A stretch of 64,000 nt of DNA. It comes from an uncultured Acidobacteriia bacterium. GTDB taxonomy: Bacteria > Acidobacteriota > Terriglobia > Bryobacterales > Bryobacteraceae. Positions 2,567 to 17,471 of the stretch are shown piece after piece. The notes under the pieces are model-generated. The model was not told the origin of the DNA and searched no databases. It was given only the letters and a program-made list of their open reading frames with translations. The DNA is taken from assembly GCA_903881085.1 (NCBI GenBank), contig CAIRSA010000109.1, positions 1 through 64,000 of the forward strand. The letters run 5' to 3'. Position numbers and translations under genes: made by a program. Position 1 is the first letter of the stretch. Every line of letters starts with the position of its first letter.

Positions 2567-3169
2567 ATGACGGCGTGCCTGCGGGTTCAAGATCTTTCGG
2601 TCCGGTACGGGGCGGGGCGGCCGGTGCTCGAGCGATTTTCTTTGGAGATTGGTCCAGGTGAGGTGGTTGGGCTGGTGGGTTCGTCCGGGTCTGGGAAGAG
2701 CACGCTGATGCTAGCTATTCTTGGACTTTTGCCGCGCGGGGCGGTTCAAACAGGGTGCATTGAATGCGCGGGCCGGATCGGGGCGTTTTTTCAAGAGCCT
2801 TCGTCCGCTTTGAATCCGGTGCTGAAGATTGGCACACAGATTCAGGAAGTGATGCGCACGGCGGGGGAGGCTTCGCGCGACCGTGCCCTGCGAGCACTGG
2901 CCGAGGTGGAGTTGCCGGCGGAGCGTGTGTTTGATTCGTATCCACACCAGTTGAGCGGCGGGCAATTACAGCGGGTGCTGTTTGTGCAGGCGACGATTGT
3001 GGAGCCGGTACTAATCATTGCCGATGAACCGGCCGCGGCGCTGGACGACGACACGAAGGCGCAGATGATGCGCTTGTTCTCGGCGCGGCGCGGGCGGACG
3101 GGCATGTTGTTTATCACTCACGAAGAAGAGCTGCTGGAGAGCTTCGCGGACAAGGTGGTGCGACTGTGA
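2567..3169 (+). CDS. ABC transporter ATP-binding protein, peptide/nickel type (DppD-like)
   Basis: The first ATPase of a peptide-type ABC importer, 200 residues from ATG 2567. An upstream in-frame start at 2504 would add residues unlike the family. Walker A GSSGSGKST (38-46), Q-loop with SALNP typical of Opp/Dpp ATPases, signature LSGGQ (129-133), Walker B VLIIADE (148-154) and H-loop His185 are all present, so it should hydrolyse ATP. It is much shorter than the usual 320-330 residues because the C-terminal oligopeptide/dipeptide extension is absent. It overlaps the next gene by 4 bp (GTGA), as do its successors, implying one translationally coupled operon. Confidence 0.9.
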   Translation: MTACLRVQDLSVRYGAGRPVLERFSLEIGPGEVVGLVGSSGSGKSTLMLAILGLLPRGAVQTGCIECAGRIGAFFQEPSSALNPVLKIGTQIQEVMRTAGEASRDRALRALAEVELPAERVFDSYPHQLSGGQLQRVLFVQATIVEPVLIIADEPAAALDDDTKAQMMRLFSARRGRTGMLFITHEEELLESFADKVVRL

Positions 3170-3765
3170 TTGAGGTTCGCGGGCTAACTAAGGCGTACAA
3201 AGGTGTGCGAGCTCTCGATGGGGTGAGCTTCTCAGTTGCGGCGGGCGGCACGTTGGCGGTGGTGGGGCAATCAGGCGCAGGCAAGTCGACGCTGGCGCGC
3301 ATTCTGGCGCGGTGGGAGCGGGCGGATGCAGGCACGGTTGCGGGCGTGACGAGCGTGCAAATGTTGATTCAGGAGGCGGGGGCGAGTTTGAATCCGCGGT
3401 TTACAGCCCTGGAGGCGGTGGCGGAGCCGTTGGTAGTCAATGGTCTGCCTGCGGGCGCGGCAGAGGAGTTGTTGATGCAGGCGGGAATTGTAGCAGATGA
3501 GTGGCATCGCAAGACAGACACCTTCAGCGGAGGGGAGCGGGCGCGCATCGCGCTGGTGCGGGCACTGGCCTTGAAGCCAGATTTATTAGTGCTGGATGAG
3601 CCGTTTTCGAGTTTGGACCGGGCGACTCAGGGTCGCATGATGGAATTGCTGACCGGCCTCCGCGCACGGCACCCATTCGCCTTGATCGCGGTGCTGCATG
3701 ACCGGAAGCTGGCGGCAGCGATGGCGTCGCAGGTTTTGGAGTTGCGTGCGGGGAAGGTGGTATGA
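3166..3765 (+). CDS. ABC transporter ATP-binding protein, peptide/nickel type (DppF-like)
   Basis: The second ATPase of the importer, 199 residues, with a GTG start overlapping the previous stop. Walker A GQSGAGKST (34-42), Q-loop followed by ASLNP, signature FSGGE (120-124), Walker B LLVLDE (140-145) and an H-loop in VLHDRK are intact. Like its partner it lacks the C-terminal oligo_HPY-type extension of classic DppF. Two distinct ATPases plus two permeases and a family 5 binding protein match the Dpp/Opp architecture. It overlaps the permease gene by the sequence ATGA. Confidence 0.9.
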   Translation: MIEVRGLTKAYKGVRALDGVSFSVAAGGTLAVVGQSGAGKSTLARILARWERADAGTVAGVTSVQMLIQEAGASLNPRFTALEAVAEPLVVNGLPAGAAEELLMQAGIVADEWHRKTDTFSGGERARIALVRALALKPDLLVLDEPFSSLDRATQGRMMELLTGLRARHPFALIAVLHDRKLAAAMASQVLELRAGKVV

Positions 3766-4694
3766 CACTGCGATTTGTAGCTCGAAGGACGCTGCACTCG
3801 GCGCTGTTGCTGGTGGCCATATCGGTGCTTTCCTTTCTGCTTTTCGACTTGGCGCCGGGGGATTTCTTTAATGAGATCAAGCTGGATCCTGGGATTTCCG
3901 CGGGATCGGCAGAGGCACTGCGCGAACAGTACGGACTGACGCAAGCCTGGCCGGTGCGGTATTGGCGGTGGGTGGAGTCGGCGGGGCGCGGTGAGTTTGG
4001 AGTGTCGTTCGCCTACAACATGCCGGTGGGGCAGTTGATGGCCCCTCGAATTGCCAATACTCTGCTGTTGACGGGGTTGAGTTTGCTGGTTGCCTGGAGC
4101 GTGGCGTTGCCCTTGGGGCTGGTTTCGGCGAGATTCGATTCTGGCGTGCCGGCTGGGATGGCATTACTGCTGGCACTGCCGGAGTTGGCGCTGGCCTATG
4201 CGGCGGTTTATTTTGCCGCGAAGACGGGATGGCTGCCGGCGGGCGGGATGCGCGGCGCGGATGGCGGCGGGGTGCTGGCGCACTTGGTGCTGCCGGTGCT
4301 GGTGCTGAGTCTGGCGACGTTGCCCGTATTGGTGGGGCATGTCCGATCGGCACTGCTCCAGGTGGCTGAAGCTCCTTATATACGGGCGGCGCGGGCGCAT
4401 GGCATCGCATCGGGGCGGTTGTGGACACACCATATTCTGCCTGCTGCAGCGAATCCGCTGACTGCCCTGGCGGGCCTTTCGGTGGCGGGACTGCTGAGTT
4501 CATCGCTGTTAGTTGAGGTTATTTTCAATTGGCCGGGCTTGGGTCCACTGCTGGTTGAGGCGATTGCGGCGCGCGATGTCTTTGTTGTGTTGGGCGCGGT
4601 GTTGTACTCGGCGGCCTTTGTGATTGCCGGGAATCTGTTGGGTGATTTGCTGCTGGCAGCTTGCGATCCGCGGATTCGCTGGGGGCGGCGATGA
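3762..4694 (+). CDS. ABC transporter permease, DppB-like
   Basis: A 310-residue inner-membrane permease with an N-terminal helix (LLLVAISVLSFLLFDLAPGD), the DppB-type periplasmic segment LREQYGLTQAWPVRYWRW, and five further hydrophobic segments. The cytoplasmic coupling loop reads YIRAARAHGIASGRLWTHHIL, the EAA-type motif that docks on the ATPase, followed by LLVEVIFNWPGLGPLL, highly characteristic of DppB/OppB. The start overlaps the previous stop (ATGA) and its own stop overlaps the next ATG. Substrate is probably a peptide, but nickel or oligosaccharide cannot be excluded. Confidence 0.92.
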   Translation: MTLRFVARRTLHSALLLVAISVLSFLLFDLAPGDFFNEIKLDPGISAGSAEALREQYGLTQAWPVRYWRWVESAGRGEFGVSFAYNMPVGQLMAPRIANTLLLTGLSLLVAWSVALPLGLVSARFDSGVPAGMALLLALPELALAYAAVYFAAKTGWLPAGGMRGADGGGVLAHLVLPVLVLSLATLPVLVGHVRSALLQVAEAPYIRAARAHGIASGRLWTHHILPAAANPLTALAGLSVAGLLSSSLLVEVIFNWPGLGPLLVEAIAARDVFVVLGAVLYSAAFVIAGNLLGDLLLAACDPRIRWGRR

Positions 4695-5470
4695 AGTTCG
4701 CAGTGGCGGTTGTGGTAGCGGTGGCGCTGCTGCCATTGGTTGCGCCGTATGAGCCTGCGGCGCAGGACCGGGACCATCCGTTTGCCGCGCCGGGGGCGGC
4801 TCACTGGCTGGGGACGGACGAGTTTGGTCGCGATCAGTTCAGCCGTTTGCTGTATGGGGGCCGGGTGTCGTTATTCGCAGGGGTGTTCGCGACGGCGCTG
4901 ACGCTGGCGGCGGGACTGGCATTGGGCGGGCTGGCCGGATATTTTGGCGGTGTAATGGATGAGATCATCATGCGCGGGGCGGAGCTGTTTTTGTCGATGC
5001 CGTGGCTGTATCTGCTGCTGGGCGTGCGGGCGTTTCTGCCGCTGAGCCTGGGTCCGCTGCATTCGTTTTTGCTGATTACGGCGATTATTGGACTGCTGGG
5101 TTGGGCACGGCCGGCGCGATTAGTGCGCGGGCTGGTACTGAGCGGACGCGAGTTGCCGTACGTGCTGGCGGCTCGGGGGTTCGGGGCCGGTCCGTGGTAC
5201 CTGTTCCGGCGGCATCTGTTGCCGCTATTGTGGCCGGTTTTGCGGACACAGGCGGTGGTGCTGACGCCGCGCTATGTGCTGGCAGAGGTTTCCCTCTCGT
5301 TCCTCGGATTAGGGGTAGGCGAGCCGATTCCTTCGTGGGGGCAACAAATTGCGACCTTACGTCAGTTGGCGGCGCTGGAGGCGCATCCATGGGCGGGTTT
5401 GGGGCCGGCTTTGATCCTACTGACTTTGTTTACATTGGTACACGTCCCGAACCGCACGAAACAAGTGTGA
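4691..5470 (+). CDS. ABC transporter permease, DppC-like
   Basis: A 259-residue inner-membrane permease. I chose ATG 4691, overlapping the DppB-like stop, rather than an in-frame start at 4661. The DppC signature HWLGTDEFGRDQFSRLLYG is at about residues 38-56, followed by the EAA-type loop VLAARGFGAGPWYLFRRHLL and AEVSLSFLGLGVGEPIPSWG, both diagnostic of DppC/OppC. About five to six membrane helices are visible. The protein forms the heterodimeric channel with the upstream permease. The C-terminus is a little shorter than usual. Confidence 0.92.
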   Translation: MKFAVAVVVAVALLPLVAPYEPAAQDRDHPFAAPGAAHWLGTDEFGRDQFSRLLYGGRVSLFAGVFATALTLAAGLALGGLAGYFGGVMDEIIMRGAELFLSMPWLYLLLGVRAFLPLSLGPLHSFLLITAIIGLLGWARPARLVRGLVLSGRELPYVLAARGFGAGPWYLFRRHLLPLLWPVLRTQAVVLTPRYVLAEVSLSFLGLGVGEPIPSWGQQIATLRQLAALEAHPWAGLGPALILLTLFTLVHVPNRTKQV

Positions 5471-5493
5471 ATGATGCTAGAGTGGTTGAGAAC

Positions 5494-7182
5494 ATGGGAG
5501 TTATCCTCGCAGCCATCGGTTTTTTTCTAGCCCTTACGGGGTATGCCGAGGACATACTTATTGACCGCTGCGAGCCTGGGGTGCGCGGCGGAAAGCTGGT
5601 TGTTGCGCAGAAGGCAGAGGCGAAGTCGCTGAATCCAGTGACTGCGCTGGATGCGCCGTCCCGGGAAGTGATCCGGCGGATGATGGCCGATCTGGTTTCG
5701 ATCGACCGCGTGAGTCATGGTACCGTACCATCGCTGGCCAAGTCGTGGAAGATTTCGAAAGACGGAACGCGCTACACTCTGGCGTTGCGGCGCGGGGTGC
5801 GGTTTTCCGATGGTCATCCGTTCGATGCCGATGACGTGGTGTTCACGTTTCAGGCGTATCTTGACGAAAAGGTAAATTCGCCACAACGCGATCTGCTGAT
5901 TATCCACGGGAAGCCGGTGGAACTGCGAAAGATCGACGCGTATACGGTGGAGTTCAACATCCACGAGCCCTACGCGGCAGCGGAGCGCATTTTCGATAGC
6001 CTGGCGGTGTTGCCGCGGCATCTGCTGGAAAAGTCGTGGCGAGAGGGCAAGCTGCAGGAAGCTTGGACGCTGCGAACGCCGGCAACTCAGATCGCCGGGC
6101 TGGGGCCGTTCCGGTTGAAGCAGGTGTTGCCTGGCGAACGCATTGTGCTGGAGCGCAATCCTTACTACTGGAAGGCCGATACCAAGGGCACGCGGCTACC
6201 CTATTTCGACGAACTCCAGTTTATTCCCGGGGGCAGCGAAGACGGGCAGGCGTTGCGCTTTGCGGCGGGCGAGGTGGACCTGCTGAACCGGGTTCCAGCC
6301 AGTTCGTTAAGTATGCTGGCGAACAAAGGAGCAAAGGTAGAAGATCTGGGCGCGAGCCTGGAATACAACTTTCTCTTTTTCAATTTGACGGCGGCGAGCG
6401 AGCACCCGGCCTGGTTTGGCGATGTGCGGTTCCGGCAGGCGGTTTCGTTGGCGGCGGACCGTGAATCGATCGTTAAGTTGGCGTATGGCGGCCGCGGATC
6501 GCCGCTTTGGGGCAGCGTGTCCCCGGGAAACAAAACCTGGGTGAATCAGGCTTTGGCCAAGCCTGCCAAGAACATCGGACGGGCCAAGGAACTGCTGACG
6601 CAGGCAGGGTTCCGCTGGGGAAGTGACGGCCGGTTGTTGGATTCGAGAGGCAGGTCCGTGGAGTTTTCGATTGCAGTAAGTGCGTCGAGCCATGAACGGG
6701 TGAAGATGGCGACCATTCTCCAAGAAGACTTGCGTGAGTTGGGGATGCGGGTGAATTTGGCGCAGTTGGAGTTCCGGTCGCTGGTGGACCGGGTGACGAA
6801 TTCGCACAAATACGATGCGTGCATTCTGGGATTGGGGAACGGCGATGCCGATCCGAACGCGGAAATGAATGTGTGGCTCTCGACAGGGCCGACGCATTTG
6901 TGGAATCCTGAACAGAAGAGCCCGGCCACAACATGGGAAGCGGAAATCGACAGATTGATGAAGCAGCAACTGACAACAATGCAGCACGCCAAACGCAAGG
7001 CACTGTTTGACCGCGTGCAGCAGATTGTCGCTGAGCAACTTCCTGTGATTCCGCTGGCAAGCCCGAATGTGATTGTGGCGTCGCACGGAAACGTGGGCAA
7101 CTTCCGGCCTGCCATTTTGGACCATTCCACATTGTGGAACGTGGAAGAGCTTTTTGACCGCCGCCTGAGCACGCACCGATGA
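5494..7182 (+). CDS. ABC transporter substrate-binding protein, family 5 (peptide type)
   Basis: A 562-residue periplasmic binding protein. ATG 5494 gives a signal peptide (GVILAAIGFFLALTGYA); a GTG at 5467 overlapping the previous stop is an alternative. The family 5 signature lies near residue 95 (RRGVRFSDGHPFDADDVVFT), with FRQAVSLAADRESI and a C-terminal IPLASPNVIVASHGNVGNF typical of the fold. It should deliver peptides to the two permeases upstream. Its stop overlaps the ATG of an ECF sigma factor, so importer and regulatory genes appear to be on one message. Confidence 0.9.
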   Translation: MGVILAAIGFFLALTGYAEDILIDRCEPGVRGGKLVVAQKAEAKSLNPVTALDAPSREVIRRMMADLVSIDRVSHGTVPSLAKSWKISKDGTRYTLALRRGVRFSDGHPFDADDVVFTFQAYLDEKVNSPQRDLLIIHGKPVELRKIDAYTVEFNIHEPYAAAERIFDSLAVLPRHLLEKSWREGKLQEAWTLRTPATQIAGLGPFRLKQVLPGERIVLERNPYYWKADTKGTRLPYFDELQFIPGGSEDGQALRFAAGEVDLLNRVPASSLSMLANKGAKVEDLGASLEYNFLFFNLTAASEHPAWFGDVRFRQAVSLAADRESIVKLAYGGRGSPLWGSVSPGNKTWVNQALAKPAKNIGRAKELLTQAGFRWGSDGRLLDSRGRSVEFSIAVSASSHERVKMATILQEDLRELGMRVNLAQLEFRSLVDRVTNSHKYDACILGLGNGDADPNAEMNVWLSTGPTHLWNPEQKSPATTWEAEIDRLMKQQLTTMQHAKRKALFDRVQQIVAEQLPVIPLASPNVIVASHGNVGNFRPAILDHSTLWNVEELFDRRLSTHR

Positions 7183-7727
7183 AGACCGACGAACAATTGA
7201 TCGCGGCCTGCATGGAAGGCGACGATGCAGCCTGGTCGGCGCTGATCGAGCGCTATAAGAATCTGGTCTATTCCGTTCCGGTGAAGTATCGCATGCCGCG
7301 GGAAGATGCCGCCGATATCTTCCAATCGGTATGGGTTGAGCTGTATACCGAGCTGAAGAACTTGCGCAACGCGGGGGCGGTTCGGGGGTGGCTGCTGACG
7401 GTGGCCACGCACAAGTGCTACCAGTGGAAAAAGCGGCGCGAATTGGTTGACCCGAACGCGGACGGCGGGCGGGATTCGGTGAGCGATACGCGGATGCTGT
7501 ATCCGCAGTGGAAAGAGGAGCTGGAGCGCGAGCAGATGCTGCGCGAAGCTGTGGAGTCGCTGCCACCGCGCTGCCGCCGCATGGTGGAGATGCTGTTCTT
7601 TCAATCGCCGCCGCTGCCTTATGCGGAAGTGGCGCGGCAACTGGGGCTGGCGGAAGGGTCGATCGGATTCATCCGCGGACGATGCCTGACGAAACTGCGC
7701 AAGGCGCTGCAAGAGATGGGATTCTGA
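7179..7727 (+). CDS. RNA polymerase sigma factor, ECF/sigma-70 family
   Basis: A 182-residue alternative sigma factor. Region 2 covers about residues 7-75 (LIAACMEGDDAAWSALIERY at the start, YSVPVKYRMPREDAADIFQ resembling region 2.2) and region 4 covers 115-175, with SLPPRCRRMVEMLFF and the helix-turn-helix YAEVARQLGLAEGSIGFIRGRCLTKLRK. It would direct RNA polymerase to its own promoter set. It is coupled by overlap to both the binding protein upstream and the CHAT protein downstream; the protein encoded at 10755 is a plausible anti-sigma partner. Target promoters are unknown. Confidence 0.92.
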   Translation: MKTDEQLIAACMEGDDAAWSALIERYKNLVYSVPVKYRMPREDAADIFQSVWVELYTELKNLRNAGAVRGWLLTVATHKCYQWKKRRELVDPNADGGRDSVSDTRMLYPQWKEELEREQMLREAVESLPPRCRRMVEMLFFQSPPLPYAEVARQLGLAEGSIGFIRGRCLTKLRKALQEMGF

Positions 7728-10561
7728 TGCCCTTCTCACAAGGACAGCTGCTGAAACTGATTGCGGAACAGCCCGATCCGCTGGCACGCATCACAATGCT
7801 GCGCGGGCAGCCGGCGGTGCACACCTACGAAGCTATTGAGCAGATGCATGCGGAGGTGCTGCGGCTGGCGTACATCGACGCGGAGCAGGCGTCGCGACTG
7901 GCTCAAGCTGCGCAGTGGCTGGCCGTGGAGCTGGGCGAGCCGCGCGGGCAAGCGCTGGCATTGCGGGCCCTGGCGCATACGGAATACGCGCAATCGAACC
8001 ATGAGGCGGCGCTGGCGCATTACTCCGAATCGTTGCGGCTGTTTGAGGAGTTGGGGCAGGATTTGGAAGCGGGCCGTACGCTGAACAGCGGACTGCAGAC
8101 GCTGATTTACCTGGGGCGGTACGAACAGGCATACGAATGGGCGGAACGGGCGAGGGTGATCTTCATCCGCCATGGCGACCACTTGCGGCTGGCGCGGCTG
8201 GCGAGCAACATGGGCAACATTTTGTACCGCCAAGATCGCCATGCCGACGCGCTGGAGCTATACGGGCAGGCGTACGAGAAGCTGAAGTCGATTGGCGAAT
8301 CGAAGGACGTGGCGGCGGTGTTGAGCAACATGGCGGTCTGTTGCACCAGCCTGAGCCGCTTTCCGCAGGCGCTGGAATACTACAACCTGGCGCGGCACTG
8401 GTGCGAGGATCACGGCCTGGATTTGCTGGTAGCGGGGGCTGACTACAACATCGCGTATCTGCACTACCTTCGGGGCGATTACCTGAAGGCGATGGAGATC
8501 TACCAGGCGACCCGCGTGCGGTGCGAGAAGGTGCACGACCGGTACCACGCGGCGCTGTGCGATCTGGACGAATCAGAGATGTTCCTGGAGCTGAATCTGA
8601 GCGATGAAGCGGGGATTCTGGCGCGGCAGGCGGCGCAATCGTTTCAGGTTCTGAGTATGCCGTATGAACGGGCCAAGGCGATGGTGAACCGGGCCATTGC
8701 GGCAAGCCATCGCGGGGAACGCGCGCGCGTTCACAGCCTGTTCCGTGACGCACGGAAGCTGTTCGGATCGGAAGGGAACACCATCTGGCCGGCGCTGATT
8801 GACCTGTACGAAGCGATTCTTTATCACCAGCATGGGCGCAACGTAGCGGCACGCCGGCTGTGCGAACGGGCATACAAGGTTTTGGCCGATTCGCTGTTAC
8901 CGGGGAAGGCAGCACTCTGCGAATTGCTGCGGGCACAACTTTTCCTGAAAGCGGGCAAGCGGACACTGGCGAGACAATCGTGCCTGGATGCGATGAACCG
9001 GATTGCCAGCGAGGGCGCGCCGTCGCTGCGATTCCACGCGCATTTTGTGCTGGGGCTGATTGAGGAGCATTGCGGAAATACCGAGGCGGCCTACATGTCG
9101 TACCTTGCGGCGCGCGAAGAGATAGAGCAACTGCGAAGCCGGCTGTGGGGCGAGGACATGAAAATCTGGTTCCTCAAAGACAAGCTGGTTGTTTACGAAA
9201 GCCTGGTTGCGCTGTGCCTGGGAAGAGTACCGCAGGGTCAGGAGAGCGTGCGCGAGGCGCTGCTGAATATCGAACGGGCAAAGTCGCGCAGCCTGATGGA
9301 CATGATGTCGATTGAGGCGCCTGCCATCGCCGGAATAGGCGAGCAGCCCGGCTACTCGCCGGAGATCGAGGAGATGCGGCGGGATCTGAACTGGCACTAC
9401 CGGCAGATCGATCTGGCGGCGTTGCTGGCGCAGTCGGGATTTGCGCAGCGGATCCAAACGCTGCTGGAAAAGGCGCGGGAGCGGGAGAAGCAGCTGGTGC
9501 GAACGATGGCCGAAGTGCCGGCGCCGGATGCCGGGGCGAATGTTCCGCTGGAGAAGATCCAGGCGTCGATTCCGGCGAATGCGATTCTGCTGGAATATTA
9601 TCAGGTCCGGGGGGTGATTCACGTTTGCCTGATCGGGCGGGACCGGCTGGAGGTTGTGCCGCTGGCGGCCGCACCGGAGCTGCGAACGCAACTGCGGCTG
9701 CTGCAATTCCAGCTTTCGAAGTTCCGGTTGAGTCCGGCGTACCTGCAGCTTTTTGGCGATGAATTGCGGACGGCGGTAGAGACCAACCTGTCGAATTTGT
9801 ACCGCAACCTGATTGAGCCGGTTCGCGCGCGGCTGAATGCATCGCATCTGATTATTTCGCCGCACAGTTTTCTGCATCACCTGCCGTTTCATGCACTGGT
9901 GGGCGGGGGGCGGAACCTGATTGACGACTTTACGATCTCGTATGCTCCAAGCGCGAGCGTGTTTTCGTTATGCCGGGCGAGGAAGCAGACTTTCCGCGAG
10001 GAGTCGCTGGTGCTTGGCGTGCCTGATAGCCTGGCTCCGCATATTGAATCGGAGGCCTTGTCGGCAGCCGAGGTGCTGCCGAATGCGCGGCTGTTTATAG
10101 GGGAAGAGGCCAATGAGCAGAATCTGCGGCAGTTTGGGTCCACGGCGCGCTATGTGCATATCGCCACACATGGATTGTACCGCCGCGATAATCCGATGTT
10201 CTCTTCGATCCGGTTGAGTGGATCGCATCTAAGTCTATTCGATCTCTATCAGTTGCCGATCAGTGCCGATCTTGTGACGCTCAGCGGTTGCAGTACGGGA
10301 TTGAACGCGGTTGTGGGCGGAGATGAGCTGCTGGGATTGATGCGCGGGCTACTGTTTGCGGGCGCGCACACGGTGAATGTGAGTCTGTGGGATGTGAATG
10401 ACCAGAGTACGGCGCAGTTCATGAGTTCTTTCTATCTTCATCTAAAGAAAGAGAGTAATAAGGCTGTGGCGTTGCAACAGGCGATGTTGGAGCTGCGCGC
10501 GGAGTATCCGCATCCGTACTATTGGGCGCCGTTTGTGCTGGTGGGGAATTATGGAGGGTAA
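7727..10561 (+). CDS. TPR-repeat protein with C-terminal CHAT (caspase-like) protease domain
   Basis: A 944-residue protein starting at ATG 7727, sharing the A of the sigma factor's TGA. Roughly residues 50-480 consist of tandem TPR helices (for example ALAHYSESLRLFEELG, ALEYYNLARHWCEDHG), followed by an alpha-helical linker and a CHAT domain. The catalytic dyad of clan CD peptidases is visible: His815 in HIATHG and Cys855 in LSGCSTG, with the domain ending in YYWAPFVLVGNYG. CHAT domains (HetF and TPR-CHAT proteins) are caspase/separase-like cysteine proteases, often in signalling or conflict systems. No signal peptide, so cytosolic. Here the gene is embedded between a sigma factor and an anti-sigma/S8 peptidase pair, suggesting regulated proteolysis; the substrate is unknown. 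Confidence 0.92.
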   Translation: MPFSQGQLLKLIAEQPDPLARITMLRGQPAVHTYEAIEQMHAEVLRLAYIDAEQASRLAQAAQWLAVELGEPRGQALALRALAHTEYAQSNHEAALAHYSESLRLFEELGQDLEAGRTLNSGLQTLIYLGRYEQAYEWAERARVIFIRHGDHLRLARLASNMGNILYRQDRHADALELYGQAYEKLKSIGESKDVAAVLSNMAVCCTSLSRFPQALEYYNLARHWCEDHGLDLLVAGADYNIAYLHYLRGDYLKAMEIYQATRVRCEKVHDRYHAALCDLDESEMFLELNLSDEAGILARQAAQSFQVLSMPYERAKAMVNRAIAASHRGERARVHSLFRDARKLFGSEGNTIWPALIDLYEAILYHQHGRNVAARRLCERAYKVLADSLLPGKAALCELLRAQLFLKAGKRTLARQSCLDAMNRIASEGAPSLRFHAHFVLGLIEEHCGNTEAAYMSYLAAREEIEQLRSRLWGEDMKIWFLKDKLVVYESLVALCLGRVPQGQESVREALLNIERAKSRSLMDMMSIEAPAIAGIGEQPGYSPEIEEMRRDLNWHYRQIDLAALLAQSGFAQRIQTLLEKAREREKQLVRTMAEVPAPDAGANVPLEKIQASIPANAILLEYYQVRGVIHVCLIGRDRLEVVPLAAAPELRTQLRLLQFQLSKFRLSPAYLQLFGDELRTAVETNLSNLYRNLIEPVRARLNASHLIISPHSFLHHLPFHALVGGGRNLIDDFTISYAPSASVFSLCRARKQTFREESLVLGVPDSLAPHIESEALSAAEVLPNARLFIGEEANEQNLRQFGSTARYVHIATHGLYRRDNPMFSSIRLSGSHLSLFDLYQLPISADLVTLSGCSTGLNAVVGGDELLGLMRGLLFAGAHTVNVSLWDVNDQSTAQFMSSFYLHLKKESNKAVALQQAMLELRAEYPHPYYWAPFVLVGNYGG

Positions 10562-10593
10562 GGGCGAAGAGGCAATCCGGGGTGAAGACCTAG

Positions 10594-10609
10594 CGCTCGC
10601 AAGCGAGCG
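10594..10609. repeat. Short perfect hairpin after the CHAT gene
   Basis: CGCTCGC and GCGAGCG separated by AA form a 7-bp stem 33 bp after the CHAT stop. No U-run follows, so it is a weak terminator candidate at best; just downstream (10610-10618) is half of the GGCAGGCGAATC repeat seen elsewhere in the window. The rest of the gap up to 10754 is A+T-rich around 10650-10680 and could hold the promoter of the anti-sigma/S8 pair. Confidence 0.5.
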
Positions 10610-10754
10610 GGCAGGCGAATCCTAACTAAAAGAACAGCCTCCGGATGAACATGAAAATATTTTTTTCACAGCCTATATTTTTCCGCCCCATACGCACCCA
10701 TTACTCTGTGGAGAATCGGCTAAAGACCGGACCGCTGTCCCCAGGAAGAGGGCT

Positions 10755-11387
10755 ATGAGCCATTTTGAACGCAGTCATTGGGTGGATTTTGCGCGGGGCC
10801 TGCTTTCCGCCGGGGAGCGTACGCAAATGGAGCGTCATCTGAGCGAAGGCTGCCGCGATTGCATGTCCGAACTTGCCTTTTTTGAGCGGGTTGCACATGC
10901 TGGTGCGGGCGTGCGCGAAGTGATCGCGCCGGAAGATATCGTGATGCTTGCGCGCAATATTTTCCCCTTGAAGCCGAAGCAGAAACCCTTGTTACAGCGG
11001 TTGGTGGCGCGTTTGGTTTACGACAGTTTTGCAGATTTAGCACCGGTTGGAGTCCGCTCCGGCAAGGCGTTGAGCAGGCAGTTGATGTACGAGGTTGAGG
11101 ATTACCTTGTGGATCTTAGGCTGGAAGGCGAACGCGACTCCATGCTGGTCAGCATTGTGGGTCAGGTCGCGAATCGGAGAGTTCCAGCCTCGCGAATGGT
11201 GGATCAGAACATTCGCATTGTGTCTGGCAAAAGCGTGTTGCGCCAGACTCGCAGCAACGGGTTTGGCGAATTTTGTCTGGACTATAGTCCAAAGAGAAAC
11301 GCGAAACTGCTGATTTCCCTGCCCGAAGGGGAGCGGCACGTAGAAGTATCTTTGAACCGTTTGGTAGAGGAGCATCCCGCGTCATGA
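10755..11387 (+). CDS. Putative anti-sigma factor-like protein
   Basis: A 210-residue protein with an N-terminal segment MERHLSEGCRDCMSEL, close to the His-x3-Cys-x2-Cys zinc motif of anti-sigma factors (here His-x4-Cys-x2-Cys). No membrane helix is visible, so it would be a soluble anti-sigma factor. The C-terminal half (about residues 130-200) reads SIVGQVANRRVPASRMVDQNI and NGFGEFCLDY, resembling a small beta-sandwich of the carboxypeptidase-regulatory kind. ATG 10755 follows GGAAGAGGGCT, a fair ribosome site. It overlaps the S8 peptidase gene by 4 bp. Anti-sigma function is inferred from the motif and the nearby sigma gene. Confidence 0.65.
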   Translation: MSHFERSHWVDFARGLLSAGERTQMERHLSEGCRDCMSELAFFERVAHAGAGVREVIAPEDIVMLARNIFPLKPKQKPLLQRLVARLVYDSFADLAPVGVRSGKALSRQLMYEVEDYLVDLRLEGERDSMLVSIVGQVANRRVPASRMVDQNIRIVSGKSVLRQTRSNGFGEFCLDYSPKRNAKLLISLPEGERHVEVSLNRLVEEHPAS

Positions 11388-12736
11388 TGCGAAAAAACAT
11401 TCAGGTCTTCTTTTATTGCGCATTTCTTGCGCTGATTCCCGCCGCGTCTGGTCAAACAAAATATATATTGGAAGCGCCCTTCAGCGACATTCCGCGCCTT
11501 TCTTCGCAGTATTCGCTGACGGTCGTGCGTTCGATTGAAAATAGCCAGCATACGGTTTATGTTGTTACGGCGCCTGCTTCCATCCCTCCGGCGCAATTGA
11601 TCGCCAAGGTCAGCAAAGACAAATCCGTTGTGGGATTTGAGTCGGATACGGAATTGCACCAGACCGAAGCGAAAAGCAATCCTACGAGTTTTGCTATCTC
11701 CACTACCGCGTTGAAGGCCTACGCGTCCGATCTGACGTTGACCAGCTACTTCGGCTCACAAGTGCGTTCGATCTATGCCAAGCAGCCGGCCGCCGATTCG
11801 ATAGGCCTGACCAGCGCGCTTGGCCAGTTCGGTGGGGGCAGCGGCACCGTTGCCATCATTGACACGGGCATAGACCCGAAGCATCCCGTATTTAATGGGG
11901 TGTTGGTTCCGGGCTTCGATTTTACGCGCAACACCGGCGGGTTCGCCTCAGAGATGGCTGACCTGGATCAATCCACCGTAGCGATTCTGGATCAGTCGAC
12001 GGTGGCGATTTTGGACAAGAGCAACGTTCCCGCCATTTTGAACCAGTCAACCGTGGCCATACTGGATCAATCGACCGTGGCCATTCTGGACGGATCGAAA
12101 CTGCCGTCGGATTTTGGACACGGCACGATGGTGGCTGGACTGGTGCATCTGGCGGCGCCCCATGCAAAGATCATGCCGCTGAAGGCTTTCCGTGCTGACG
12201 GCACTTCGGATCTGTCCGATATCATCCGGGCGGTTTATTTTGCGGTGGATCACGGGGCCAATGTGATCAACATGAGCTTCAATCTGACCACGCCTTCCAC
12301 GGAATTCGCCAATGCGATCGCTTATGCGGCTTCGAAGAACGTTCTGATGTTCGCATCGGCCGGCAACGATGGGAAACGGCTGCTGGTATACCCGGCGGGG
12401 TTCTCCAAGGTGGTTGGCGTAGGTTCGACCGATAGTAACGACCGCCGCAGCCGGTTTAGCAATTATGGAACGGCAAGCGCCCGGACTTCGGCGCCAGGCG
12501 AAGCCTTGATCACCACGTATCCGGGCGGGCATTACGCCGGGGTGTGGGGTACATCCTTCAGCACGGCACTGGTTACCGGGGCATCGTCGCTGTTTATGGG
12601 CTTGAATCCGCGTTGTGGGTATTCCCAGGTGATGGACGCGCTGGAGAAGGGCAAGAGGATCGATCAGGGCATGGGCGACGCGGAACTGAATGTGCTGACG
12701 AGCTTGCAGTTTTTGATGAACAACCGCTGGAATTAG
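11384..12736 (+). CDS. Secreted subtilisin-like S8 peptidase with an internal octapeptide repeat
   Basis: A 450-residue subtilase. A signal peptide (residues 1-23, cleaved after SG or GQ) is followed by an inhibitor I9-like prodomain (about 25-95). The catalytic triad is complete: Asp160 (IIDTGID), His246 (GHGTMVAG) and Ser391 (GTSFSTAL), with the oxyanion Asn328 in SAGND. Between Asp and His sits an unusual block of LDQSTVAI repeats (194-239). The protein should be exported and active outside the cytoplasm. It overlaps the anti-sigma-like gene by ATGA and its stop overlaps the convergent XpaC-like gene. Context suggests that it is part of the sigma/CHAT module and may supply peptides to the importer at the head of the cluster. 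Confidence 0.93.
   Translation: MMRKNIQVFFYCAFLALIPAASGQTKYILEAPFSDIPRLSSQYSLTVVRSIENSQHTVYVVTAPASIPPAQLIAKVSKDKSVVGFESDTELHQTEAKSNPTSFAISTTALKAYASDLTLTSYFGSQVRSIYAKQPAADSIGLTSALGQFGGGSGTVAIIDTGIDPKHPVFNGVLVPGFDFTRNTGGFASEMADLDQSTVAILDQSTVAILDKSNVPAILNQSTVAILDQSTVAILDGSKLPSDFGHGTMVAGLVHLAAPHAKIMPLKAFRADGTSDLSDIIRAVYFAVDHGANVINMSFNLTTPSTEFANAIAYAASKNVLMFASAGNDGKRLLVYPAGFSKVVGVGSTDSNDRRSRFSNYGTASARTSAPGEALITTYPGGHYAGVWGTSFSTALVTGASSLFMGLNPRCGYSQVMDALEKGKRIDQGMGDAELNVLTSLQFLMNNRWN
11963..12100 (+). repeat. Tandem octapeptide-coding repeat inside the S8 peptidase
   Basis: Five units close to LDQSTVAI follow each other, ending in a partial LDGSK unit; the third unit is variant (LDKSNVPAI). At DNA level the copies differ at synonymous positions, so the peptide, not the DNA, seems to be kept. 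It lies in the loop between the catalytic Asp and His. Confidence 0.9.
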
Positions 12737-13374
12737 GGTTTGAAAGCGGTTTTTTCAGCGAATTTCGATTGCAGGAAGTTCCCGTTGGTCACCAGCGCTT
12801 CGGCGTCTCCGGAAAATGCGTTAGCGGCGATCTCTTTCAACGAAGTGTTCAAGACCTTCAATTGACCGGTCAACACTTGTGAGGCAGTGCGTCCGTCGGA
12901 GAGAGCCTGCACCTGCGCATAGATTTTAGGTAGGCGCAAATAGGCGCCGAGGGTATCGGGCAGATAGCGGCGAACGGTTTCAATCACAGTGAAGGATTCC
13001 TTGGCAGATAGCACGCCGCGATCACGCAGTTGTTGCATGCGCGGCAGTAATTCACTCAGCGTGGTCTGGATGTTGTGTAGTTCGTCCAAGGCTTCCTTGG
13101 GCAAGCCTCGGGCAACACTGTCCACCAGTTTGCGCACCTGATCGGCGAGCAGTTCGGTGGAGAGTTCGGTCTGTTCGGCCATTTCTGCGAGTTCGCTGCG
13201 CGGCCAGCCCAAAACACCAGCTCCATAGAGACCGGCGACAATGGCCCACCAATAAGCGTGAATGATTCCCGCGAAGAACAGCCCGAGGCCGCACAAGGCC
13301 AAAAGGCATCCAACGATGTTCGGCGTGCTGTAAAGGAACAGTGCGGCGCGCTGGCTGAAGGTTAACGATGTCAT
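12733..13374 (-). CDS. XpaC-like membrane protein with coiled-coil tail
   Basis: A 213-residue protein with two N-terminal membrane helices (NIVGCLLALCGLGLFFAGI and WWAIVAGLYGAGVLGW, about 18-55) and a long charged, helical cytosolic part. It is the last gene of a minus-strand operon containing TelA. In Bacillus the TelA homologue yaaN sits next to xpaC, a membrane protein of similar size and layout, so I assign this one as XpaC-like from context and topology, not from strong sequence motifs. Its role may be to anchor TelA at the membrane. Its stop overlaps that of the convergent S8 peptidase. Confidence 0.6.
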   Translation of the reverse strand: MTSLTFSQRAALFLYSTPNIVGCLLALCGLGLFFAGIIHAYWWAIVAGLYGAGVLGWPRSELAEMAEQTELSTELLADQVRKLVDSVARGLPKEALDELHNIQTTLSELLPRMQQLRDRGVLSAKESFTVIETVRRYLPDTLGAYLRLPKIYAQVQALSDGRTASQVLTGQLKVLNTSLKEIAANAFSGDAEALVTNGNFLQSKFAEKTAFKP

Positions 13375-13383
13375 GGCGGAGGT

Positions 13384-14985
13384 TTACTGGTAGCCTCGAA
13401 TCTCCTTAAATACTACCGCAAGTGACTTGGCGCGAGAATCGAAGAGACGTCCGCCGGTGATGGCGGCGAGTTCATTCAACTGCTTGGCGCTGCCTTCGCC
13501 GAACAGGATGGGGAAGACGCGGATGCCACGAGTGGCTTCGTCCTGCGCGGCGTGCCAGCGCTTGAATTCCGAAAGCGAGATGCCTTCGTTGCTTTCTCCG
13601 TCAGTCATAACTACTACAGTGTAATAACGTTTTTCTCTATTCATCGCGCGCTGGCGGCCGAGTTCGGAGATGGCGTTTCGCACGCTGGAAAAGAGCGCCG
13701 TTCCGCCACCGGCTTCCATGGGCCTGACGAAGGCGGCGACTTCGGCACGGGCTCGGGCGTTTTCCGCAGGCGTAGCGCCCATGGGGAACATTCGCGTGGG
13801 ATTCGGGTGCGTATTGAAGGTGATGATACCAACCTCTTCGCGGTTCTGGAAGTGGGCGTAGCGCTGGGCCTGCGCTTCCGAGGCGAGCATGAGCATGGCC
13901 TCTTTCAACCCATCGATACGGGGGCCTGACATGGAGCCGGAAAGATCAAGCACGTAGCGGGTTGAGCCGGGGGTGCGGACGTCTGAGAGGAAGTTACCGA
14001 GTAGAGCGTCAATGAGCGAGGCCTGGCCGGGGAACGGCAGTTCGATCAACGTGCGCTGTGGAATCACCGGGGCTGCGGTTGCGTCGGCGTTCACAGGGCG
14101 GCGCAGGGTTGCGGCGGACATTTTCGTCTGGAAATCTTTACCGCGAAGGTAGGCGATCAGCTTGTCGAAATCGGGGCGCTTTTCGGCGGAGAGCAGCATC
14201 AGCGGATAGTCGGCTGTGATGATGCCTTCCTTGGGATAGACCAGCGTAAGGGGTTCGGAGAGCTTGCCGGAGGCGTTTTCAGAGAGCAGGACCGATTCGT
14301 AGTTGATCATGCCATCGACCGTCGATTGCTCGCGTTCGTAGGCTTCCGCAAGCCAGCCGGAGGAGCCGGATGTCATGGTTTGACCGCGGAAGAAATCGCC
14401 GAGGCGGGGGTTCTTGAGGTCCTCTTCGGTGAGGGCGTCGGGGTTCTTGGCGAGCGCAGCGGCAAGGCCGATGGTCGCGGTGAGGCCGGTGTTGCTGGAA
14501 GTTGGGTTGGCCATGCCGAAGGTGAATTTGCCGGCTTTGGCGGCGTCGGAAATCTCTTTCCAGGTGGGTTCGGCTTTGTCCCAGCCCAGTTCGCGGGCCT
14601 TCGATGTTTTCAGGCCTAGCAGGACGGGCGAGAGCATTGTCTTTTCTTGGGCCAGGATGCGGCTTTTCAGCGCATCGTTCATGGCGATGTACTTGCCGTG
14701 GGAGACCCAGAGGGCGTCGAATTTGTCGCCAGCGGCGATTCGATCGACTGCGTCGAGCGTGCCGGAATAGGAGAAGGCTAGCTCGATGCCGGTGGCTTTT
14801 TGAATGTCAGCGGAGAGCTGGGTTTCGATGTCCTTTAGTTCGGAGCCGGCTAGGATCTTAAATGTTCTTGGGGAGGGTTCTGAGGGTTTGGTGGAGGAAC
14901 AAGCGGTTAGTAGGGCGAGGGTGGCAAAAGTGGACAGGCGAATCGCCTGTCCTACCCATGGCGGAACGAATCTTTGAGGTTTCAT
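13384..14985 (-). CDS. Lipoprotein fusing a substrate-binding domain to a von Willebrand A domain
   Basis: A 533-residue lipoprotein with lipobox LLTACSS (Cys29). Residues about 40-300 look like an extracellular solute-binding fold (FKILAGSELKDIE, FGMANPTSSNTGLTA, GIITADYPLMLLS). Residues about 340-533 are a vWA domain with an intact MIDAS: DLSGS (Asp347, Ser349, Ser351), a downstream Thr in GGGTALF and Asp in MTDGES. It should bind a ligand outside the inner membrane and present a metal-dependent adhesion surface. It overlaps the TelA stop by 4 bp (ATGA). The n-region of its signal peptide is encoded by a palindromic repeat (14932-14952). Confidence 0.85.
   Translation of the reverse strand: MKPQRFVPPWVGQAIRLSTFATLALLTACSSTKPSEPSPRTFKILAGSELKDIETQLSADIQKATGIELAFSYSGTLDAVDRIAAGDKFDALWVSHGKYIAMNDALKSRILAQEKTMLSPVLLGLKTSKARELGWDKAEPTWKEISDAAKAGKFTFGMANPTSSNTGLTATIGLAAALAKNPDALTEEDLKNPRLGDFFRGQTMTSGSSGWLAEAYEREQSTVDGMINYESVLLSENASGKLSEPLTLVYPKEGIITADYPLMLLSAEKRPDFDKLIAYLRGKDFQTKMSAATLRRPVNADATAAPVIPQRTLIELPFPGQASLIDALLGNFLSDVRTPGSTRYVLDLSGSMSGPRIDGLKEAMLMLASEAQAQRYAHFQNREEVGIITFNTHPNPTRMFPMGATPAENARARAEVAAFVRPMEAGGGTALFSSVRNAISELGRQRAMNREKRYYTVVVMTDGESNEGISLSEFKRWHAAQDEATRGIRVFPILFGEGSAKQLNELAAITGGRLFDSRAKSLAVVFKEIRGYQ
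14932..14952. repeat. REP-like palindrome inside a signal-peptide coding region
   Basis: GGACAGGCGAATCGCCTGTCC is a 21-base palindrome, perfect except for its single central base. Related units occur at 60717-60790 and, as a half unit, at 10610. Here it is read in frame as part of the leader of the substrate-binding/vWA lipoprotein. Confidence 0.75.
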
Positions 14986-16199
14986 AGGGTTACGGGGCCG
15001 GTTGGACTGCTGGCGGCGGTGTCGGAGAGGGCTTTGATGGCGGTGTGTTCGCGCTGCATGCGGGCTTCGCCTTCGGAAAGCAGGCCTTTGAGCAGGGTGA
15101 TGTTGGCGCCCATGGATTCGATGTTTTTGGAGCGGAATTCGTCCATCTTGTCGAGGCCGGCAAAGACAGTATCGAAGGAGGCTTTCAGCGTCTGGACGCC
15201 GATCAACGGATTGGATTGGAATTCAATGACGCGGTCGACGTGATCGCCGAACATCTTCGCGGTGGAGGCCATCAGGCCTTCGATGGCGGCCGAGCCGGCT
15301 TTGAGCGCGTCCATCACTTTCATTTGGTAGCCCTGGGCGCGGGCCAGCGTGACGGCGATAGAGAGGCTGGACATACCGATGGTGGCCATGCGGTCGCAAC
15401 CGTTGTGGAGTTCGCGGCCAGTTTTGCGCAGGCCTTCGAGCATTTTGTAGCCGTTAATGCAGACCAGGATTTGCGTTTTGACGTCCATACTGGCCTGGCG
15501 GGCGTAAAAGAGAACCTCCTGTTCGATTGCCTTGGCACGAAGTGGGTCAGTTGGTTTCAGCTTCGCTATGGCGGCGGTGAGGGTTTCGTCGAGGTGGTCG
15601 ATGAACACGTCGACGGCTTTCAGTTTCACCATCGCGTCGAGCAGTTTATTCATGGTGGCGAACAGTTCCTGATCGTCGCGGGCGAGTTCGTCCTGCACGC
15701 CGTAGATGTTATCGATCAGCTTGCGCAGCGAACCGCTGGCGCTATCGAAGCGCTGCAAATAGGCTTGCAGGCGGTTGCCGAAGGGGATGATACCAAGGAT
15801 TTTGTGCTGCGAAAACAGGTCGCCTTCCTTGCCTGGATCAAGCGATTCGAACAGGCCGCGCATTTCGTTCATTACTTTGAAGGCGGGGTTATCGGTATCG
15901 CCTACGAAGTTCTTCTCCATGAACTTGCCAGTGAGCAGGGCCGAGTCGCCGATTTCCTTGCGGCCGAGGCGGAAGGCGCTATCGACACGGGAGCGGAATT
16001 CGCCGGACGTGACGTCCATGTGCATCAGGTCGGCAATGAATTGATCGGCCTGGGCGACGGCTGCGGACTTGGTCTCGTCCTTCATGGGGATGAGGGCGGT
16101 GGCTGCGTCGGGCGATTTGATGGCCACGACGGGTTGAGGCATGGCAAGAGTCAACGGCGCATCCGGTGCGGCTAGCTGCGTTGGCTGTTCCGGGTTCAT
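14982..16199 (-). CDS. TelA family toxic-anion resistance protein
   Basis: A 405-residue, almost wholly alpha-helical protein of the TelA/YaaN family. Typical segments are KNFVGDTDNPAFKVMNEMRG, the glycine-rich SQHKILGIIPFGNRLQAYLQR, and VFIDHLDETLTAAIAKLKPT. It has no signal peptide and should sit in the cytosol or at the membrane surface. TelA proteins are linked to tellurite and other envelope stresses; the biochemical activity is unknown. It lies between an anchored substrate-binding protein (12 bp upstream) and the binding/vWA lipoprotein (4-bp overlap), matching known TelA-XpaC-vWA neighbourhoods. GGAGCTCGCAAC before the ATG is a good ribosome site. Confidence 0.9.
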   Translation of the reverse strand: MNPEQPTQLAAPDAPLTLAMPQPVVAIKSPDAATALIPMKDETKSAAVAQADQFIADLMHMDVTSGEFRSRVDSAFRLGRKEIGDSALLTGKFMEKNFVGDTDNPAFKVMNEMRGLFESLDPGKEGDLFSQHKILGIIPFGNRLQAYLQRFDSASGSLRKLIDNIYGVQDELARDDQELFATMNKLLDAMVKLKAVDVFIDHLDETLTAAIAKLKPTDPLRAKAIEQEVLFYARQASMDVKTQILVCINGYKMLEGLRKTGRELHNGCDRMATIGMSSLSIAVTLARAQGYQMKVMDALKAGSAAIEGLMASTAKMFGDHVDRVIEFQSNPLIGVQTLKASFDTVFAGLDKMDEFRSKNIESMGANITLLKGLLSEGEARMQREHTAIKALSDTAASSPTGPVTL

Positions 16200-16211
16200 G
16201 TTGCGAGCTCC

Positions 16212-17324
16212 TTATTGTTTAGCGGCCGCTTCAATGCGGCCGATCAGGTTTTCCAGAATGTCGAAACTGGGCGGATCGATGACGTCCACAATGGTGTGCG
16301 GAATCTTCATTTGGCGGGCTTCGATGGCGGCGAAGAGGCCGCTGCTATCCTGCGTGCGGAAGCCGTAGCGCTGGGCGATGGCGTCGATCTTCGGATTGTT
16401 GGTCATCACCTGGGCGAAGCGTGCGCCGTTGTCGGAGATGGCGACCATGGTGTGCTTGGAAAGGATTGTTGGCGCGGGGTAGAGCAGCACCATGTCGGGA
16501 TTCGGCTTGGGGTGGGCGAGCACATATTCCAGGAACTGCTGTTCGTAGATCATCACCAGCGGAGCTTTGCCGATACCCATTGCGGTATAGTCTTCGAAGG
16601 GGCCGGCCGAACTCGATTCCTGGAAGCCCTGGCGCGAGAAGAGCGTGACCATCGATTCACCGACTTTGGCCGCGTCGGCTTCGTTTTCAACGACGTTGTT
16701 GCCATTGGCCAAGTAGGCGGCAAGGGCGAGATACATACCGCCTGAGTTTGACTTGCGGACATCCGTTGAAGTGACCAGCACCGATTTGCCGACCGAGTAG
16801 GCGGTGTTGCCGGGAAGGTCCTTCCATCGCGTGCCCTTGCGCATCATGTCAACCAGTTTCCCCATGTCGATAATGAAGAAGGCGCCATCTTTTTGTGCAA
16901 CCAGGCCAGATGCTTGCAGCACCGGGATGAGCGTCTTCCAACTGGCTACGGCCATGGGCGTAAAAAACGTTGGGTAGGTGCGCTTGGAGCCGGTGACCTG
17001 GGCGATTTTCACTGCGGCGTGGGCGCCGGCGGGGAAGGCGATGTCGAAAGATTTCAGGTCAGAGCGGGTGGCGATTTCACGGGAACCGGCCTTTTGGACC
17101 GTGATGGTGATGCGTTCGCTGTCGAGGATTTTGGCCAGTTCGGGGTCGGCGAGGAGTTTTTCCTTTTCCGAGCCGCTGAGGATCTTTACGGTGATGCGTT
17201 CAGATGCGCGGCGAGCGTCGGAATCCGACTGCTTCTTTTCGCGCATCGAATAGTTCACTGCCAGCCCGACACCCACCAGCAGTAGTACCGCAAGCGATGG
17301 TCCCAAAGCCTTGCGGAGGTTCAT
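16212..17324 (-). CDS. Membrane-anchored substrate-binding-like protein of the TelA operon
   Basis: A 370-residue protein starting at ATG 17324, which has AGGGAG in front; an upstream start at 17396 would add an unlikely hydrophilic leader. One N-terminal membrane segment (ALGPSLAVLLLVGVGLAVNY) is followed by a solute-binding-type fold: RSDLKSFDIAFPAGAHA, KSNSGGMYLALAAYL, and KAPLVMIYEQQFLEYVL. It resembles the ligand-binding half of the neighbouring lipoprotein but lacks the vWA domain. The periplasmic domain probably senses or binds a ligand. It is the first gene of the operon. Ligand unknown. Confidence 0.75.
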   Translation of the reverse strand: MNLRKALGPSLAVLLLVGVGLAVNYSMREKKQSDSDARRASERITVKILSGSEKEKLLADPELAKILDSERITITVQKAGSREIATRSDLKSFDIAFPAGAHAAVKIAQVTGSKRTYPTFFTPMAVASWKTLIPVLQASGLVAQKDGAFFIIDMGKLVDMMRKGTRWKDLPGNTAYSVGKSVLVTSTDVRKSNSGGMYLALAAYLANGNNVVENEADAAKVGESMVTLFSRQGFQESSSAGPFEDYTAMGIGKAPLVMIYEQQFLEYVLAHPKPNPDMVLLYPAPTILSKHTMVAISDNGARFAQVMTNNPKIDAIAQRYGFRTQDSSGLFAAIEARQMKIPHTIVDVIDPPSFDILENLIGRIEAAAKQ

Positions 17325-17471
17325 GAGTCTGTCTCTCCCTATGCCATAGTACGGTTCTGCGCCGCTTTTGTTCGGAGTAAGTTGGCGGCCACGCACGACG
17401 CGTCAATAGCTGACTTCACGTTAACATGCGAATGTTACAACGGGATTTCAGTGGGTGATTGAGTGGTTAGG

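Follow-up and report, generated by a model that had tools for sequence, protein, structure and literature searches.

Known systems and the acidobacterial locus

Peptide quorum-sensing systems of the RRNPPA group (Rap-Phr, PlcR, NprR and Rgg, found in Bacillota) use a secreted precursor, extracellular processing, import by an Opp permease and a cytoplasmic receptor made of tetratricopeptide repeats (TPR), with a cognate peptide for each system. Tandem pheromone copies occur in the Phr precursors of these systems (PMC11343458). The criterion of RRNPP_detector is a receptor of 250-500 aa encoded beside a short secreted propeptide gene, and the RRNPP survey covered Firmicutes and viruses (PMC10075063). 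In another system, the TPR-CHAT protease Csx29 cleaves the inhibitor Csx30 and thereby relieves the extracytoplasmic function (ECF) sigma factor CASP-sigma (PMC10028731). The present study concerns a nine-gene run in a 64,000-nucleotide stretch of DNA (the window) from an uncultured Acidobacteriia bacterium (contig CAIRSA010000109.1). The run encodes an oligopeptide-type ABC importer with its substrate-binding protein (SBP), an ECF sigma factor, a TPR-CHAT protein, a predicted zinc anti-sigma factor (the 10755 protein, named from its start position) and a secreted S8 subtilase with tandem octapeptide repeats. It is probable that this cluster is a self-made peptide signalling circuit, acting either through a pheromone or as an export-import timer.

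The proposed circuit would follow the logic of the RRNPPA systems, with a secreted precursor processed outside the cell, Opp import, a cytoplasmic TPR receptor and a cognate peptide for each system, and its precursor likewise has tandem peptide copies. It is unlike them in its host, a diderm acidobacterium, in its precursor, an intact protease whose catalytic domain contains the peptide, in a receptor of about 945 aa ending in a CHAT protease, in its sigma/anti-sigma output and in having the importer in the operon. A receptor of 945 aa with CHAT and a 450-aa protease as precursor both fall outside the RRNPP_detector criterion. With the Csx29-Csx30-CASP-sigma system (type III-E CRISPR, Craspase) the cluster shares a TPR-CHAT protease beside an ECF sigma factor and its inhibitor, but the inhibitor is a zinc protein rather than Csx30 and the proposed trigger is a peptide rather than RNA. 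None of the nine genes encodes a Cas protein by Pfam, and no Cas7-11 or crRNA component is present among them. Identification of the TPR-CHAT protein as Csx29 was rejected, the score against NF041237 being 49.6 bits vs a cut-off of 300. As proposed, the circuit would combine the workings of RRNPP quorum sensing with an output of the Csx29 type, and it belongs to neither group. A literature search for this gene combination returned the Csx29 work as the sole close parallel, and the literature searched described no re-imported peptide pheromone for acidobacteria.

Conservation of the gene cluster

Judged from gene order, the nine-gene run is a conserved unit and far from a chance neighbourhood, because the same order (ABC-PermB-PermC-SBP-SIG-CHAT-ASIG-S8) is complete in 39 loci, the window included, from at least 20 genera and four families, although the proteins are only about 28-60% identical across the loci that keep it. 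The loci came from a contig scan with the TPR-CHAT alignment and from an S8-alignment search that covered 399 genomes within the class, of which 95 matched (E up to 1e-70), and were annotated with profiles built in this analysis. Relatives of the 10755 protein were detected in 7 of 61 related genomes, with a TPR-CHAT relative in nearly all of those loci. Taken over all searches, most relatives come from metagenome assemblies of acidobacteria, several of these being Bryobacterales. Pattern and profile searches of the organism's own genome gave 12 further CHAT genes, none accompanied by this gene set in the stretches examined.

Armatimonadota, Rubrobacter and Chloroflexota have a core of sigma factor, TPR-CHAT protein and S8 protease that lacks the importer and often includes an anti-sigma-like gene. 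The loop between the catalytic Asp and His of the protease is mostly 75-99 residues long in the acidobacterial clusters, and 44-55 residues in this importer-less core. Where a locus extended for 7 kb or more upstream of the CHAT gene and 4 kb or more downstream of it, the importer was present for 37 of 52 long-loop S8 genes vs none of seven short-loop genes (Fisher p 0.0005, an optimistic value as the genes are related). Importers also adjoin long-loop S8 genes that have no CHAT gene nearby (L224, L258 and L271). A Chloroflexi locus (L127:4774-9582) combines TPR-CHAT, a divergent S8, SBP and permease genes, possibly an independent importer association, and a short contig (L214, the same contig as L108) carries a tandem duplication in the order CHAT-ASIG-S8-SIG-CHAT.

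The S8 protease and its octapeptide repeats

The S8 protein (450 aa) comprises a hydrophobic, signal-like N-terminal segment, a pro-domain and a catalytic domain. The D-H-S triad (D160/H246/S391) is invariant in 53 sequences, and the subtilase fold is evident in the structural model (mean predicted local distance difference test score, pLDDT, 87.5), which matches pro-subtilisin E (3whi, Foldseek E 1.3e-24). Fold, pro-domain and triad are those of subtilisins with a pro-domain; unlike these, the window-type S8 has a repeat-bearing insert of roughly 30-50 residues between the catalytic Asp and His. In the window this loop bears four tandem copies of QSTVAILD (11969-12091), and a degenerate DNA pattern for the octapeptide has four matches genome-wide, all in the S8 gene. 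The model falls below a pLDDT of 50 only in the repeat loop, at residues 206-222 and 227-235; the loop is predicted to be disordered, and the low values may partly stem from poor alignment of the repeats.

Relatives bear 2-10 copies of another octamer, with 31 octamers in 83 genes (among them QSTVAFLD, QSTVIILD, QSTVEILD, QSTTSILD, QSTAAVLD, QHTAAMLD and QSTAGILE), and a few members, such as L224, L226 and L279, have lost a clear repeat. In some S8 genes the same octamer also occurs in the segment that links the pro-domain to the catalytic domain, and in the examined loci it was found nowhere outside S8 genes. The copies inside one gene are nearly always identical as protein while synonymous sites are saturated (pS 0.66, pN 0.025, the latter a lower bound), and therefore they are not recent DNA copies. 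Recent tandem duplication or gene conversion as the source of the identity is ruled out by this saturation within genes, together with several nucleotide differences between paralogues.

Between genera the octamer switches in all copies together, and within a genome it tends to be held in common. Same-genome S8 pairs with 50-60% identity in the body of the protein shared their octamer in 14 of 14 cases, vs 68 of 478 different-genome pairs of the same identity, and several of the sharing pairs sit on different contigs. At L266/L267, orthologues that are 74-75% identical differ in octamer, whereas paralogues only 59-60% identical share it, and the copies in these paralogues still differ at several nucleotides. 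Same-genome pairs with differing octamers (G004, G080 and G392) occupy separate loci, G004 having two complete systems.

The largest array is in an S8 gene at L280:13362-14948 (- strand), whose loop carries QSTVSLLN/QSTVALLN ten times, with further copies in the pro-domain linker; the other system of that genome uses QSTVAFLD. Octamer-bearing S8 genes at L236, L241, L245, L246, L248, L259, L263 and L269, mostly with no CHAT gene in the fetched stretch, are possible extra pheromone sources. Several of these have long C-terminal extensions, one with FG-GAP repeats.

Co-variation of the octamer with the TPR-CHAT protein

The TPR-CHAT protein (945 aa) consists of a TPR region at about residues 1-300 and a CHAT domain at residues 689-942, with a middle part between them. 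The CHAT-protease dyad is intact in the motifs THG (H816) and SGC (C856), both residues being invariant in nine sequences. The TPR part matches RapJ (8.7e-9) and RapF (about 2e-8), and other TPR proteins match better.

Octamer distance between loci was compared with distance in each protein part after removal of background divergence (partial Mantel test). Across 32 loci, distance in TPR residues 1-300 correlates with octamer distance (partial r 0.455, 0/1000 permutations). No such correlation was seen for the permeases, nor for the middle part and CHAT domain of the TPR-CHAT protein. In a set of 47 loci and 24 octamers, r was 0.29-0.44 for TPR windows and at most 0.14-0.15 for other CHAT windows and those of the sigma and anti-sigma factors, and one window in the S8 body reached 0.29. 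In 22 disjoint closest pairs the TPR region again followed the octamer (r 0.55, p 0.005), and parts other than TPR and S8 body were not significant. Pseudo-octamers drawn from the S8, sigma and anti-sigma proteins reached the value of the true octamer in 6 of 669 cases. The SBP, permeases, sigma factor, anti-sigma factor and CHAT domain were each considered as the octamer-tuned part and rejected, their co-variation being weak, absent or negative. On this comparative evidence, octamer differences appear to follow chiefly the N-terminal TPR region, which is proposed to be a peptide receptor paired with its own octamer.

The anti-sigma factor and a promoter-like motif

Searched by itself, the 10755 protein stays below the threshold of every Pfam family (zf-HC2 14.7 vs a cut-off of 22.2 for the single sequence), but its family profile matches RsiW (8.4e-5) and 3hug (0.0017), and also DdvA and ChrR, and its relatives include zf-HC2 and CarboxypepD_reg matches. 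Across 52 family sequences C33 and C36 are invariant and H28 is present in at least 90%. In the model (pLDDT 88.8), a four-helix part that includes the conserved H28, C33 and C36 is followed by a beta-sandwich; a Foldseek search with this model gave nothing at E <0.001, the top match being ChrR at 0.01. The marks of a zinc-associated anti-sigma (ZAS) factor, namely an HxxxCxxC-type zinc motif, a four-helix domain and a place beside an ECF sigma gene, can all be recognised in sequence and model. The profile matches to RsiW, ChrR and DdvA, the three conserved residues and the model support both the anti-sigma name given to the protein in the initial annotation and its prediction as a ZAS anti-sigma factor. 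It shares the four-helix N-terminal domain and HxxxxCxxC with RsiW and ChrR, whereas, unlike RsiW, it has no evident membrane segment, and its C-terminal beta-sandwich is a different domain.

Of 63 CHAT-linked anti-sigma genes, 49 are preceded by a two-part motif, CCTATATTTTTY-N12/13-ACCCTTAT, which was found ahead of none of 37 ABC1 genes (250 bp upstream) and one of 102 S8 genes. The site in the window (10672-10704) scores 21.7 vs a 1% null value of 9.4 from a shuffled control that preserves base composition only. Twelve whole genomes were tested for the strict form, which occurs once each in seven and is absent from the other five; when compared by hand with the fetched stretches, the site stands before the anti-sigma gene in five of these seven, and in the other two it is farther off, upstream of the importer operon. 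The promoter-like motif agrees with two transcription units, split before 10755, and the sigma factor of the cluster may read it.

Elsewhere, at L239, L243, L249 and L251, the motif stands ahead of a gene for a secreted protein of roughly 145 aa just upstream of the importer operon. A relaxed pattern has two further matches in the window's genome, at G000:C96:37685-37715 (L301) and G000:C506:2086-2115 (L303), near Ig-repeat-like protein and multihaem cytochrome-like genes.

A proposed circuit and its alternatives

In the proposed circuit the S8 subtilase would be secreted and the octapeptide of its Asp-His loop (QSTVAILD here) freed by S8 auto-processing or by another protease. The co-encoded Opp-type importer would carry the octapeptide into the cytoplasm, where the TPR-CHAT protein would bind its cognate form through the N-terminal TPR region. 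Binding would turn on the caspase-like CHAT domain, which would cleave or disable the zinc anti-sigma factor, a soluble protein. Once released, the ECF sigma factor would transcribe the anti-sigma/S8 pair from the 10672-10704 promoter. Feedback would be positive through S8 and negative through the anti-sigma factor. The sequence comparisons show the nine-gene linkage, the identity of the repeats in each gene, the single octamer among the S8 paralogues of a genome and the co-variation of octamer and TPR region, as well as the promoter-like motif, the intact catalytic residues and the predicted ZAS fold. From these we infer octapeptide release, import, binding, CHAT activation, anti-sigma cleavage and use of the motif by the sigma factor; the action of CHAT on an anti-sigma inhibitor is suggested by the analogy of Csx29 cleaving Csx30.

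Several observations weigh against this circuit. In the disjoint pairs, octamer distance also correlates with the S8 body (r 0.45, p 0.02), so that general co-evolution may account for some of the signal. Because partial Mantel tests are liberal and the loci are related to one another, the co-variation is read at an empirical level of about 1%. Octamer co-variation of the SBP is not clear (partial r 0.19, 52/1000 permutations). Fifteen long-loop S8 genes lie in loci with no full importer nearby. The repeat copies were chosen by similarity, which biases pN low; pS is not likewise affected. The promoter motif, a putative target of this sigma factor, has an AT-rich upstream box, which is unusual for an ECF promoter.

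The octamer might instead be the recognition or cleavage site of S8 itself, at the pro-domain junction and in an activation loop, co-evolving with S8 specificity and carrying no signal. Its presence in some genes at the pro-domain/catalytic linker, where subtilases self-process, fits such a role, as does the co-variation of the S8 body, but the TPR co-variation and the linked importer are left unexplained, the same octamer is common to paralogues only 50% identical at unlinked loci, and the ten loop copies of L280 exceed processing needs; this explanation is considered unlikely. A further proposal is that the TPR-CHAT protein binds the octamer on unexported, cytoplasmic S8 precursor, as a secretion monitor or with the precursor as protease substrate, and that the importer has a separate nutrient function. 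This would account for the TPR co-variation and the intact CHAT domain with no need of import, and the importer is indeed missing at some loci. Neither the retention of the importer in 39 loci nor the importers beside S8 genes with no CHAT gene nearby is accounted for, and the proposal is judged rather improbable.

Beta-prone, identical repeats common to the paralogues of one genome could also suggest self-assembly or amyloid-like motif matching between S8 molecules, with the regulator reading assembly or envelope stress. Such a role is very improbable, since the octamer follows a cytoplasmic TPR region and the loop is predicted to be disordered. Ordinary nutrient peptide uptake with a stress sigma operon, the repeats being neutral low-complexity sequence, could be argued from how common each of the importer, sigma, CHAT and S8 families is. 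It is disfavoured and carries almost no weight, as neutral repeats would neither keep their protein identity at saturated silent sites nor match across unlinked paralogues.

The initial annotation had suggested a proteolysis-driven regulatory or conflict circuit, perhaps sensing imported peptides, and took as contrary evidence homologous loci in which the importer is never beside the sigma/CHAT genes. The gene-neighbourhood survey clearly gives the opposite, with 39 loci in full order, and the regulatory, peptide-sensing part of the suggestion is the best supported; the conflict part found no support. No record in the plasmid collection covers 80% of the TPR-CHAT protein, no record in the phage collection covers 80% of the S8 protein, and the octapeptide repeat had no match in viral contigs. 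A conflict or mobile-element role is disfavoured by this lack of near-complete plasmid or phage relatives and of repeat matches. One record in the viral-contig collection (L304) encodes an S8 protein 48% identical to that of the window and may be host DNA.

Gene coordinates and neighbouring genes

Table 1. Features of the nine-gene run, in window coordinates.
Feature	Position	Strand	Evidence
ABC importer ATPase 1, Opp/Dpp/Nik-type	2567..3169	+	Pfam ABC_tran 1.2e-22; nearest NCBIfam are NikD/YejF/dipeptide ATPases; syntenic in relatives
ABC importer ATPase 2	3166..3765	+	Pfam ABC_tran 6.2e-23; syntenic
Importer permease B	3762..4694	+	BPD_transp_1 1.1e-25; Opp2B/Opp4B-like, under equivalog cut-offs
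Importer permease C	4661..5470	+	BPD_transp_1 7.7e-20; Opp4C-like, under cut-off
Periplasmic oligopeptide-type binding protein (SBP)	5494..7182	+	SBP_bac_5 1.5e-83; weak octamer co-variation, partial r 0.19
ECF-type sigma factor	7179..7727	+	Sigma70_r2 6.5e-11; r4_2 2.3e-6; TIGR02937 above its cut-off
TPR-CHAT protein	7724..10561	+	CHAT 1.6e-60 (PF12770)
Predicted promoter CCTATATTTTTC-N13-CCCATTAC	10672..10704	+	Upstream of anti-sigma/S8 pair; matches family motif
Predicted soluble zinc-finger anti-sigma factor, C-terminal beta-sandwich	10755..11387	+	ZAS domain, H28-x4-C33-x2-C36; profile matches
Secreted S8 subtilase, proposed pheromone precursor	11384..12736	+	Peptidase_S8 1e-33; triad D160/H246/S391
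Octapeptide copy 1, QSTVAILD	11969..11992	+	Sequence, in S8 gene
Octapeptide copy 2, QSTVAILD	11993..12016	+	Sequence, in S8 gene
Octapeptide copy 3, QSTVAILD	12044..12067	+	Sequence, in S8 gene
Octapeptide copy 4, QSTVAILD	12068..12091	+	Sequence, in S8 gene

The open reading frames, coordinates and overlaps of the initial annotation were correct on recheck, and Pfam upheld its families (two ABC ATPases, two BPD permeases, SBP_bac_5, sigma-70 regions 2 and 4, TPR with CHAT, and S8). Its gene run stands; it had overlooked that the S8 gene contains the proposed peptide source, a tandem octapeptide repeat, and it had also missed the promoter-like motif at 10672-10704. Neighbouring genes overlap by 4 bp at 3166/3169, 3762/3765, 7179/7182, 7724/7727 and 11384/11387, and the permease genes by 34 bp (4661-4694), with gaps of 23 bp before the SBP gene at 5494 and of 193 bp between 10561 and 10755. 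The two ATPases, two permeases and SBP_bac_5 protein make up a full Opp/Dpp/Nik ABC set, no component of which reaches an equivalog cut-off, so that annotation gives it no specific substrate. Downstream lies a convergent run on the - strand (12733-17396), which looks like a tellurite-type stress cluster; its products are two proteins of 213 and 394 aa, a VWA protein that also has a solute-binding domain, and a TelA-family protein.

Significance

We lean, with some reserve, towards regarding the cluster as a new peptide-signalling class. In this class tandem pheromone copies would lie inside the catalytic domain of a secreted protease that may release them, the permease of the same operon would re-import them, and a TPR-CHAT receptor would free an ECF sigma factor, with many cognate octapeptide/TPR pairs across the acidobacterial class. 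If peptide binding to the TPR region holds true, a new receptor class would be warranted. The octamer/TPR pairs (31 octamers) amount to a natural table of specificities, open to testing with synthetic peptides. If the circuit is true, the cluster would be a non-CRISPR parallel to Csx29, and a caspase-like protease serving as small-peptide receptor with a sigma output would link peptide quorum sensing to CHAT proteases.

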